A stretch of DNA of 22,179 bases from a virus. Below the pieces are notes generated by a model. The model worked only from the letters and a program-made list of their open reading frames with translations, had not been told where the DNA came from and made no database searches. Made by a program: the position numbers and the translations under genes. Of this stretch, positions 4,364 through 14,747 are shown piece after piece (position 1 is the first letter of the stretch; every line of letters starts with the position of its first letter). The stretch is from IMG/VR virus record IMGVR_UViG_3300030102_004719, positions 1 to 22,179 of that record; one strand, 5' to 3'.

Positions 4364-4756
4364 ATGGAATACATCACGGAACATGCCGTACCGTTGATAT
4401 GCCTTGATAAGGATTTCCGCCACCCATTGGCTGAGCAGTTCGAGGAGATCGATGAAGACGGCGATCTTGTGCGAAGTTACAACGAATGGGGATTAGCGTC
4501 TGTTCTTGCTTATATGTTCTGCCGGCGCGTAGAGACAAAGCGTCAATACGCGAATATCGAAATGGTCATCGGCGAGTGTCTACGGATTTCTCGCCATACG
4601 GCCTCAGAAAATAAAGCGTTGTTCCGCGCTATTAAGAGAGAGATCAAAGCAGGCGACAGAGAGAAGGTGATTGCTTGGTCAAAGATTCTGGTTTCTCAAC
4701 TCGCCCTGGCTCTGGCCGAACAGCACGAAGGCATGGAGGAAGATGAGGAAGATTGA
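4364..4756 (+). CDS. hypothetical protein upstream of terminase
   Basis: This encodes 130 residues from ATG 4364; the in-frame codons back to the stop at 4328-4330 contain no other usual start. It has a mixed N-terminal part (residues 1-35, acidic), a helical core (residues 36-110, with SRHTASENKALFRAIKREIK) and a very acidic tail (EGMEEDEED). There are no membrane segments. The 3' end overlaps the NblA-like gene by 14 bases, and that gene's ribosome binding site lies inside this one, so they are probably translated together. No family is recognised. Confidence 0.65.
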   Translation: MEYITEHAVPLICLDKDFRHPLAEQFEEIDEDGDLVRSYNEWGLASVLAYMFCRRVETKRQYANIEMVIGECLRISRHTASENKALFRAIKREIKAGDREKVIAWSKILVSQLALALAEQHEGMEEDEED

Positions 4757-4952
4757 AGCCAGCGTCAATGATCACCTGAAGTTTTCAAAGTTCGTCAAAG
4801 AGATTGAAAAGCTCGACCGTGATTCATTGATGGAGGTGACGATTGAGTTGGCGCGTCTGGCATTAGTCATGCAGCCAGCAGCAATCCGATGGGCCGCCTA
4901 CGAAGCGGCTGACAACCTTGGAGGATTTCATGGAACGACCGGACACTCTTGA
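4743..4952 (+). CDS. NblA-like small helical protein (possible phycobilisome-degradation adaptor)
   Basis: This encodes 69 residues from ATG 4743 with GGAGG at 4735-4739. Residues 7-51 align without gaps to the core of cyanobacterial NblA (as I recall the Synechococcus elongatus protein, where SVEQQ... and ISREDL... are typical). Shared features are Ser-Val at the start, the aromatic and leucine spacing, the L-x-R-(D/E)-x-L turn (LDRDSL here) and the second helix with IEL and R. NblA binds phycobilisomes and Clp protease and triggers antenna breakdown, and some cyanophages carry nblA. Identity is low (about nine in 46), so this could instead be an unrelated helical hairpin. It overlaps the small terminase gene by 23 bases. 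Confidence 0.45.
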   Translation: MRKIEASVNDHLKFSKFVKEIEKLDRDSLMEVTIELARLALVMQPAAIRWAAYEAADNLGGFHGTTGHS

Positions 4953-5367
4953 CGAGCGCCAGATCCTCGCCGCCCAATCCTTAGCGGCTGGGTGTAACAC
5001 GCGAGATGCAGCTCGACGAGCAAAATGCACGGTCGAGGCAATCCGTATGTGGCGGAAGCGCACCGACTTCATGGATTGCATCTGGCTTTACCAGCAAGAG
5101 CTATTCCAACAATCGTTTGGCATTACGTCTGAAGCATTGCCCATGGCGATTGCAAAATTGACGGAAATTGTTGAAACCGATGACCCCGATGTTGCCGTAA
5201 GCATCAAAGTACAGGCAATTAAAATCCTGATAGATTCAGCACAAAAAGCATACGAAACCCGCACGATTGAGCGTCGTATTGATCAACTAGAGAGCTATGC
5301 AAGGACGCAGCCTGTTATCGAAACTCAACCAATTAGAGAAATTACATCTGGAGCGGGTCCAGGCTGA
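4930..5367 (+). CDS. terS: terminase small subunit
   Basis: This encodes 145 residues. The start is ATG 4930, preceded by GGAGG at 4920-4924; a TTG at 4918 would add four residues but lies on that site. Residues 11-46 form a helix-turn-helix (LAAGCNTRDAARRAKCTVEA), followed by a helical oligomerisation region (residues 60-125) with heptad-like spacing. This is the usual plan of phage small terminases, which recognise the packaging site and load DNA onto the large subunit. The direct overlap with the large terminase confirms the call. The 3' part overlaps the large-subunit gene by 71 bases. Confidence 0.88.
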   Translation: MERPDTLDERQILAAQSLAAGCNTRDAARRAKCTVEAIRMWRKRTDFMDCIWLYQQELFQQSFGITSEALPMAIAKLTEIVETDDPDVAVSIKVQAIKILIDSAQKAYETRTIERRIDQLESYARTQPVIETQPIREITSGAGPG

Positions 5368-6724
5368 GGAACTACGCAAGCGTGAGTCGACTGGTGAGGC
5401 GTTCGTTGCTGGGTTTCCCGGTGCAGACCAGTGGGACAAATTTGCTGAACTGACTTGGATCCGATCTGGCGGCAAGATCAAACCGTTCAAACCCTTCCAG
5501 ATCCAGAAGGAACTGATTAAGTCGATATCCCAGCACCAGTACTCGATCATCCTGAAAAGCCGCCAGGTGGGGGCCAGTGAATCGATCTGTTCTTATCTGT
5601 TGTGTCGTGCGCTGACGGAGCCGGGTTTCAGCGCCTGTGTGTTCAGCAAGACAGCCGCTGACTCTGGGTCACTGGGAAAACGGATTCGCGCCCAGGCGGC
5701 CAGCATCGCCGACTCCGATATCGAGTTCACGACTGAATCGAACAGTGAGTTGTCCTTCAGGGGCAGGGGAACGATTCACTTCCTGGCTGCTACCGCCCGA
5801 GCCGCCCGAGGTATCCCGAGTGTTTCGGTGGTGGTGCTGGATGAGTGTGCGTTCCTCGGACCTGAAGCGGAGCAGATCTTTACCGCCGTTCAGCCCACGA
5901 TGGCAACGCTGGGCAATGACCCCGTGACTGGGGGCAAGATGATCTTGTGCTCCACGCCGAATGGTCTGGGAAACATGTTCGCCAACCTTTGGTATACCGC
6001 CGAGGATTGGAACAAGTTCAAGATCCACTACAGCGATATCCCGATCTACAACAAGGACCCAGAGTGGGCCGAGAAGACCCGTCTGAAGTCGAAGTTATCG
6101 AAGCGAAATTGGGCACAGGAATATGAATTGTCATTCGTCGCCTCTGAAGCCCAGATCTATGACCCCGAGCTGGTGGAGCTGGCGTGTAATGGTCGGACGA
6201 TTGACGACGGACTGGTCGGTAGGGAATACATCATGGCGGTGGACCCTGCCTCTTCTGTCGGCGAGGACTATTGGTGCTCGATTGTGTTGGACATCACCTG
6301 CATTCCTTACCGTGTGGTGAATGTCTTCCGTATACGCAACAAAAGTAGTGATTATTGCATAAGACAAATTGTCGAGCAGGCAGAGAACTTCGTTCCATCA
6401 AAGGTAATTGTCGAAAAGAACGGTGTTGGTCAGATCGTTTCAGAGGTTTTATCGGACAAGCTGGCTAAGTACATGGTCCTGCCATACAACACCAACAAGC
6501 AGAACAAAATCAGCAATACAGATCGCATCTCTTATTTGTTGGAACGCGAGGAATTGATGCTGCCCCGTGAACCGTTTTACCAGGAGTTGTTAATGTTCCA
6601 ACAGATGGCAAATGGACGCAGAGAAGCTGGAGAAGGAAGTCATGATGACTCAGTCATGGCACTTGGTCTGGCCCTGAGTTTGGTTGCCGAAACTCCAACA
6701 TCAGACTGGTTAGAACTGATATGA
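5297..6724 (+). CDS. terL: terminase large subunit (packaging ATPase-nuclease)
   Basis: This encodes 475 residues. It is the motor that pumps DNA into proheads and cuts the concatemer. The N-terminal ATPase has a deviant Walker A (KSRQVGAS, residues 87-94, with Lys first and no Lys after the Gly), Walker B VVVLDECAF (178-186, Asp182 and Glu183) and coupling motif CSTPNG (218-223). The C-terminal RNase H-like nuclease has Asp316 (MAVDPASS), Glu373 (VEKNG) and Asp450/451 (HDDS). All key acidic residues are present and the length is normal. The first 24 codons are read over the end of terS in another frame; ATG 5297 is the first usual start. The stop overlaps the next gene by four bases. Confidence 0.97.
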   Translation: MQGRSLLSKLNQLEKLHLERVQAEELRKRESTGEAFVAGFPGADQWDKFAELTWIRSGGKIKPFKPFQIQKELIKSISQHQYSIILKSRQVGASESICSYLLCRALTEPGFSACVFSKTAADSGSLGKRIRAQAASIADSDIEFTTESNSELSFRGRGTIHFLAATARAARGIPSVSVVVLDECAFLGPEAEQIFTAVQPTMATLGNDPVTGGKMILCSTPNGLGNMFANLWYTAEDWNKFKIHYSDIPIYNKDPEWAEKTRLKSKLSKRNWAQEYELSFVASEAQIYDPELVELACNGRTIDDGLVGREYIMAVDPASSVGEDYWCSIVLDITCIPYRVVNVFRIRNKSSDYCIRQIVEQAENFVPSKVIVEKNGVGQIVSEVLSDKLAKYMVLPYNTNKQNKISNTDRISYLLEREELMLPREPFYQELLMFQQMANGRREAGEGSHDDSVMALGLALSLVAETPTSDWLELI

Positions 6725-6918
6725 GCAGCCTGCCTCAAGATTATGTTGAGGAGATCCAAGACATGATCGACGATTCTATGGATCGACATGTCAAAACATC
6801 TTCGATCATCAGTGCAATCTTGGGGTTTAGCTTGCTGGGCCTGTATACAGAGGGACTACTCCGGCTGTTGGGCTTCATCCGACCCTTTATGGGTATCGAT
6901 ATCAACGTAATGTCATGA
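6721..6918 (+). CDS. small hypothetical protein with hydrophobic centre
   Basis: This encodes 65 residues, coupled to terL by ATGA and to the next gene by ATGA. Residues 1-24 are acidic and polar. Residues 27-53 (SSIISAILGFSLLGLYTEGL onwards) are hydrophobic and could span a membrane once, though a Glu and an Arg interrupt the stretch. Small genes between terminase and portal are common in phages and are often dispensable or regulatory. No family is recognised. Confidence 0.6.
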   Translation: MSSLPQDYVEEIQDMIDDSMDRHVKTSSIISAILGFSLLGLYTEGLLRLLGFIRPFMGIDINVMS

Positions 6919-11509: not shown

Positions 11510-11917
11510 TTGCCAGCGGCCACTGCAGCACTAACGGGTGCCTTAGGGGAGACTGCTTTTCAGCAGTACTTCCTGCAGCAGGGCTGTTTTGTTGCAGCGC
11601 CAGTTTTTGATTTATGGAAGACAGACTTTGTTATTGAGTGGGAAGGGCGTCTAAACAAGGTCAACGTCAAGACGATGTCGAAGGCACCTAACGCCTATCA
11701 CGTACAACTTCAAACGGGAGGTGCAGTACGTCGTCGTCTATACAGAGAAGGTGAGATTGACTATTTCGGTGTAGTCAATTTGGATTACGACAAGATCTGG
11801 ATGATCCCGTTAGCTGATGTGCAGGGCCGCACGTTGATTTCTTGGATACCGCCTGAACGACGTAAAAATAAATTGTCTAAGCGAGCAATTAATTGGGATC
11901 AGTACCGCATAAAATAG
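11510..11917 (+). CDS. PD-(D/E)XK-family nuclease-like protein
   Basis: This encodes 135 residues from TTG 11510 (in-frame stop at 11504, no ATG available). The layout fits small PD-(D/E)XK nucleases of the PDDEXK_5 type: ALGETAFQQYFLQQG (Glu14), then DLWKTDFVIEW (Asp39), then KVNVKT (Lys54 after a two-residue step), then GEIDYFGVV (Asp84) and IWMIPL. The usual acidic or Gln residue two before the Lys is Asn52. It likely cuts or binds branched or double-stranded DNA. Its site within the head operon suggests a part in packaging or trimming, but a stand-alone selfish or defence role is possible. Confidence 0.65.
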   Translation: MPAATAALTGALGETAFQQYFLQQGCFVAAPVFDLWKTDFVIEWEGRLNKVNVKTMSKAPNAYHVQLQTGGAVRRRLYREGEIDYFGVVNLDYDKIWMIPLADVQGRTLISWIPPERRKNKLSKRAINWDQYRIK

Positions 11918-13832: not shown

Positions 13833-14747
13833 ATGTCTAACAACCAAGTAAGGACCGATGATGTCGGTCTGTTTTTGGCGAGAGAGCTGGAGACAATCCT
13901 TTCAAGGGTTCTCGAAACTCAGTACGCCGATCTCAAATACGCGCAAATTTTGCCCGTGAGCACCGAGGTGGCGGCGACCTCCGAGGCTTACACGTACCGC
14001 GTGTTCGATGCCCAGGGCAAGATGAATGTCATCCAAGACAAAGCATCTGACCTGCCCCGCGCTGACGTGCTCCGTAAGGAAATCACCCTGCCTGTTCGTT
14101 CACTTGGTGGTTCCTTCGCTTACACCGTCCAGGAAGTCCGTCAGGCTGCAACTGTCCCCGGAATGAACCTGGAGACTCGTCGCGCTGCTGCTCTGCGTCG
14201 TGCTGCTGAAGAAGCCGTAAACGACATCGCATTGTTCGGCGATGGCCCTTCTGGAATGAAAGGCTTCCTGAACAGCGACCAAATCGACAAGACGGTGCCT
14301 AACAAGTGGTTCGATGGTGCATCCACCACCACTGACGAGATGCTGGAGATCCTCAACGAGGCTCCTACTCGCATCGTTCAGGGCTCCAACATGAAGGAGA
14401 CTCCGAACACGATGCTCGTCCCTTATGACGTGTATCGCATCATCTCGACCACAGCTCGCTCTGCCAGCTCTGACGAGACTGTTCTCAGCTTCTTCCTGAA
14501 GACCAACCCCTTCATTCGTTCGGTTGAACCGATCAACGAATTGGCCGCTGCTAACTCCAGCCTGTCCAAGGATCGGATCGTCTGCTACGACCGCAGCCCC
14601 GAGAAGCTGCAACTGCACATCCCCCGCACTCTGGAGCTGCTGCCCCCTGAGCGTAAGGGTCTTGAGTACAGCGTGGCTGGTCACATGCGTATTGGTGGCA
14701 CCGCCATCTACTACCCCAAGTCTGTTCTCTACGTAGAGAAGGCTTGA
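13833..14747 (+). CDS. major capsid protein (DUF2184 type)
   Basis: This encodes 304 residues from ATG 13833 with AGGAG ten bases upstream. The chain matches the DUF2184 capsid family, a version of the HK97 fold: an N-terminal arm with LARELETILSRVLETQYADL (15-34) and KYAQILPVS, then EAYTYRVFDAQGKMNVI, the helix with RRAAEEAVNDIALFGD, and the C-terminal LELLPPERKGLEYSVAGHMR followed by a strand at the end. It forms the icosahedral shell. Codon use is the most regular in the window (CGT/CGC arginine, CTG leucine), as expected for the most abundant virion protein. Long minus-strand reading frames across it are composition shadows. Confidence 0.92.
   Translation: MSNNQVRTDDVGLFLARELETILSRVLETQYADLKYAQILPVSTEVAATSEAYTYRVFDAQGKMNVIQDKASDLPRADVLRKEITLPVRSLGGSFAYTVQEVRQAATVPGMNLETRRAAALRRAAEEAVNDIALFGDGPSGMKGFLNSDQIDKTVPNKWFDGASTTTDEMLEILNEAPTRIVQGSNMKETPNTMLVPYDVYRIISTTARSASSDETVLSFFLKTNPFIRSVEPINELAAANSSLSKDRIVCYDRSPEKLQLHIPRTLELLPPERKGLEYSVAGHMRIGGTAIYYPKSVLYVEKA

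Follow-up and report, generated by a model that had tools for sequence, protein, structure and literature searches.

A conserved small gene overlapping terS in phages related to Synechococcus phage S-CBS4, with weak similarity to NblA in the first half of its product

The window analyzed here is the whole of a 22,179-nucleotide stretch of viral DNA, taken from IMG/VR record IMGVR_UViG_3300030102_004719. On its plus strand at positions 4743-4952 lies an ATG-initiated open reading frame of 69 codons (the ORF) encoding a protein of 7.7 kDa, embedded in a string of overlapping genes on the same strand. Upstream is gene U (4364-4756), which ends at a stop codon at 4756, 14 nt into the ORF. Searches of Pfam, PHROG and NCBIfam placed its 130-amino-acid product in no significant family. 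At its other end the ORF shares 23 nt with terS (4930-5367), the probable terminase small subunit gene, which has weak PHROG terS matches (E = 0.016 and 0.059) and precedes terL. The latter (5297-6724) overlaps terS by 71 nt, and encodes the terminase large subunit, matching Pfam Terminase_6N (E = 9e-13) and Terminase_6C (E = 4e-11). The ORF thus lies directly 5' of the terminase genes and overlaps terS, exactly as an earlier note on this DNA had described. The overlaps suggest that its translation may be coupled to that of its neighbors. Following terL is a small membrane-protein-like gene (6721-6918; phrog_7360/phrog_1096), whose homologues in genomes G007 and G008 occupy a different location near a lysozyme gene, as a holin might. 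The head module contains a PD-(D/E)XK nuclease-like gene (11510-11917; PF11645, E = 2.4e-9) that is kept in four long relatives.

The ORF is a real gene, because there are relatives in many viral loci and substitutions outside the overlaps fall mostly at third codon positions. Relatives of its product were found in 48 viral (IMG/VR) loci and one metagenome-assembled genome (MAG). Where dS could be computed, dN/dS outside the overlaps is mostly about 0.02-0.15, indicating strong purifying selection. The gene order U-ORF-terS-terL, with overlapping genes, is found in all 49 loci including the window, where protein identity to the window copy is about 52-97%. A search based on terS, with the loci examined by hand, gave five further loci with enough upstream sequence, and all five have the ORF in the same order; in total, 53 related phage loci contain it. 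Among the sampled phages the ORF is invariably placed and never lost. In an alignment of 38 members the invariant residues are E5, S7, D10, L36, A37, L39, A40, Q44, P45, A46, R49, W50, A52, E54, A55, A56 and N58. The strongest constraint is on a C-terminal block, residues 36-59 (4848-4919, plus strand), with the sequence LARLAxxxQPAxxRWAAxEAAxNL.

Among the matches listed for the major capsid protein of the window (13833-14747, plus strand), the one to Synechococcus phage S-CBS4 stands out with 53% identity; none of the others exceeds about 33%. Four long relatives have roughly 30-40 proteins in common with S-CBS4, the structural module included, in syntenic order, and their capsid proteins are 54-59% identical to that of S-CBS4. 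The packaging module of S-CBS4 differs in having a more divergent terminase, which lies on the opposite strand, and in lacking a homologue of the ORF. The phages carrying the ORF form a marine S-CBS4-like group, and their synteny with a Synechococcus phage makes a cyanobacterial host likely. The ORF had been taken as a marker that would identify such a host; a cyanobacterium is indeed probable, but this comes from the other genes, and the ORF itself is no identifier. A search of the relatives for psbA and hli found neither.

Some relatives contain a putative attP site corresponding to the 3' half of tRNA-Ala(GGC), matching exactly over 40-59 nt and lying beside a gene for a tyrosine integrase. 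The site is at G005:57608-57647 (L243, minus strand) in a 63.5-kb relative and at G004:7809-7848 (L244, plus strand) in a 57.9-kb relative; L260, L262 and L263 are further examples. Since the integrase adjoins the tRNA-Ala(GGC) segment, the S-CBS4-like marine siphophages look temperate, at least in part. MAG CAJXNF01, labeled as a proteobacterium, includes such a phage on two contigs. A further contig of 5603 bases (L246, G018:C216) opens with a tRNA-Ala that matches attP over 59 nt and 1.7 kb downstream of which lies a phage-capsid remnant. This contig is probably a true attB neighborhood that has been binned into an unrelated MAG. We considered the proteobacterium as host. The tRNA-Ala 3' half is missing from 57 relatives of the MAG even with up to three mismatches allowed, and by tetranucleotide profile the phage and tRNA contigs fit the bin worse than most of its other contigs, so that a mixed bin is likelier. 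No phycobilisome or psbA genes were found in the MAG.

The earlier note proposed that the ORF is a divergent nblA expressed with structural genes. Curated models do not recognize it as such. None of the 38 family members matches the Pfam NblA family (PF04485) even at E = 10, and searching the record that contains the window and nine related ones gave no PF04485 match either, whereas an NblA from a podophage (locus L069) matches at E = 5e-5. The window protein has no match in NCBIfam, and a PDB sequence search with the ORF family returned no NblA structure. Overall, nothing significant was found for the protein in Pfam, PHROGs, NCBIfam or PDB sequences. Formal membership of NblA as judged by curated models thus fails; as far as these models go, the lack of a match by sensitive profile methods, which the earlier note named as a refutation, is what is observed. 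The most frequent weak match, PHROG 3983 of unknown function (E = 0.03), was missing from all the phage records searched and was dropped. The top tblastn matches in phages, to mycobacteriophage lysin B, have E = 2 or worse and were attributed to chance, and a Treponema match to the ORF protein spans only 15 residues.

The protein could nevertheless be a highly diverged NblA-type adaptor, with an N-terminal hairpin that dimerises and a rewritten C-terminal half, delivering phycobilisomes to ClpC or otherwise dismantling the antenna late in infection. We consider this unlikely, although several comparisons point towards it. Using HHalign, residues 4-42 of the window protein (P0001) align without gaps on residues 8-46 of Synechococcus elongatus NblA, with a score of 23.9 and a probability of 46%. 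A mixed profile of cyanobacterial and podophage NblA raised these to 26.3 and 66%. Podophage NblA aligns in the same register as the cyanobacterial match (score 17.7), and so does myophage NblA apart from a one-residue gap (score 15.8 over 38 columns). The gapless alignment extends over residues 4-43 (4752-4871, plus strand), with 7-9 identities in 40. With 400 column shuffles for each, the score was never reached for the cyanobacterial or the mixed set. Column shuffles break helical periodicity, and for that reason reversed or rotated profiles and windows of real proteins were added. The former peaked at 12.8 with the cyanobacterial set and at 14.7 with the later mixed set. For the latter, 425 windows were taken from proteins of the same phages and of S-CBS4, representing 91 families; with each of the three NblA profiles tried, the ORF family came out on top, 5-10 points ahead of the next. 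Reciprocal HMM searches agree, in that the best non-self sequence for the family HMM is podophage NblA L069 (E = 0.002) and members of the ORF family come to the top of the reverse search with an NblA HMM, both directions being weak. A useful yardstick is provided by accepted myophage NblA of the S-SCSM1 ORF237 type, which scores only 8 against cyanobacterial NblA compared with 24 for the ORF family. NblA ancestry is therefore compatible with a failure to match Pfam. Furthermore, no second NblA was found when the phages carrying the ORF were searched for one, and S-CBS4-like phages probably infect Synechococcus.

Against this, about 1-2% of shuffles equal or beat the podophage-only and myophage-only matches. 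The P value of 2e-4 for the cyanobacterial match counts it as one comparison and so flatters the alignment, as do single-test P values in general here, since NblA was picked post hoc by an earlier reader who had inspected the sequence. Moreover, the similarity extends no further than residue 43. Over residues 44-54 there are no identities in 11 with three NblAs, and so the ORF protein does not conserve the C-terminal segment that in NblA makes the contact with the phycobilisome (PMC7760959). At the positions of Leu51 and Lys53 in Anabaena NblA the ORF protein has Trp50 and Ala52. In work by Bienert in 2006 those two NblA residues were reportedly found to matter for binding. We conclude that the similarity of residues 4-43 to NblA is weak but reproducible, and more than noise. 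The gapless superposition on NblA originally drawn for residues 7-51 holds as far as residue 43; the signal noticed there is real in the N-terminal half but had been over-extended to the whole protein. The L-x-R-(D/E)-x-L turn, also offered as an NblA feature, is present at residues 24-29 of the window copy. Within the family its third position may be R, H, P, A, K or L, with only L29 nearly invariant, and most of the NblAs examined lack the motif too. It is therefore not diagnostic.

The AlphaFold2 monomer, calculated with the family alignment (mean pLDDT 80), is predicted to have three helices, comprising residues 8-22, 26-43 and 45-62, with a break at Pro45. The lengths of the helices and turn in the N-terminal hairpin are NblA-like, the same as those in the model of podophage NblA. 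In the latter, however, helix 11-25 is followed by one continuous second helix (29-56), whereas in the ORF protein the second helix is broken and a third follows. Foldseek found nothing for the ORF model in the PDB and nothing useful in BFVD. Podophage NblA as a control likewise found nothing in the PDB, and since a genuine NblA relative fails equally the search gives no verdict. On present evidence the protein cannot be called NblA. What survives of the divergent nblA claim is a weak similarity of the N-terminal hairpin, while the curated models, the C-terminal half and the broken second helix go against it. In its most specific form, which we regard as rather doubtful, this reading would place the ORF in an additional, fourth branch of phage NblA, a very divergent one whose C-terminal half is new. 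The ORF would then be a core late gene fixed immediately 5' of terS in S-CBS4-like Synechococcus phages that are temperate, and would time antenna disassembly with DNA packaging. If the protein were of NblA type, one more cyanophage lineage would have antenna dismantling among its core, late-timed functions, and the curated models would have missed a whole NblA branch.

The best single reading is that the ORF encodes a core accessory protein of the packaging operon of S-CBS4-like phages, to which we give a little under an even chance. It follows from the universal presence and fixed position of the gene, its overlapping frames, and the conserved C-terminal helix that is not that of NblA. The product would be a small three-helix protein expressed from the run of overlapping genes that also includes terS and terL; its invariant QPAxxRWAAxEAAxNL helix might bind, for example, the TerS ring or TerL, and so help the assembly or specificity of the terminase. 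The invariant linkage to terS and terL, the purifying selection and the failure of any member to match PF04485 are all in accord with this. We infer a role in packaging, the most likely one, from linkage only. Linkage is not function, and unrelated small genes can become fixed in a late operon. The lack of an ORF homologue in the related S-CBS4, with its divergent terminase, argues against a universal role in packaging, and chance, or convergence on a helical hairpin, would have to explain the N-terminal match to NblA. If the protein is a packaging accessory only, it comes from an ordinary core gene, so far unnamed, in a marine phage group that is widespread.

A gene fixed in a late operon might also have nothing to do with either packaging or NblA. 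Phage genes of this size often act on the host, and the ORF could encode a small host-interaction or regulatory protein, such as an anti-host or anti-defence protein or a modulator of transcription. The product is small, predicted to be all-helical and without annotated relatives, and it occurs in temperate phages with an integrase and attP. Yet such genes usually turn over fast, whereas the ORF occupies a single position in all members sampled, and we think this explanation rather unlikely.

Phage nblA genes, which the earlier note gave as known in a few freshwater cyanophages, are not limited to these; marine podo- and myophages carry them widely (PMC9602691). The other examples examined here lie elsewhere in their genomes, which speaks against the NblA reading of the ORF. 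The nblA of myophages and picocyanobacteria, such as S-SCSM1 ORF237, encodes a protein of 54 amino acids with a KQQE motif and has other neighbors than the ORF, being flanked in S-SCSM1 by a virion gene and a helicase gene. Its assignment to NblA was made only through HHpred (PMC9602691). The nblA of T7-like podophages (e.g. S-TIP37, S-RIP2 and IMG/VR locus L069) adjoins an exonuclease gene and encodes an L-x-x-EQ(E/Q)F motif, both unlike the ORF, with which it shares N-terminal helix lengths. In the deposited records of S-RIP2, S-RIP1 and S-TIP37 (L107, L113 and L106) the NblA-type ORFs are unannotated. NblA/Ycf18 (PF04485) is the cyanobacterial adaptor for phycobilisome proteolysis. The ORF protein resembles it in size, in a 15-residue helix, a 3-residue turn and a second helix, and in a shared gapless register over residues 4-43 that retains the hydrophobic positions, with an S/T-h-x-x-Q-F/L start. 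It differs in the helix break at Pro45 and in the invariant QPA..RWAA.EAA.NL, which stands in place of the C-terminal helix of NblA.
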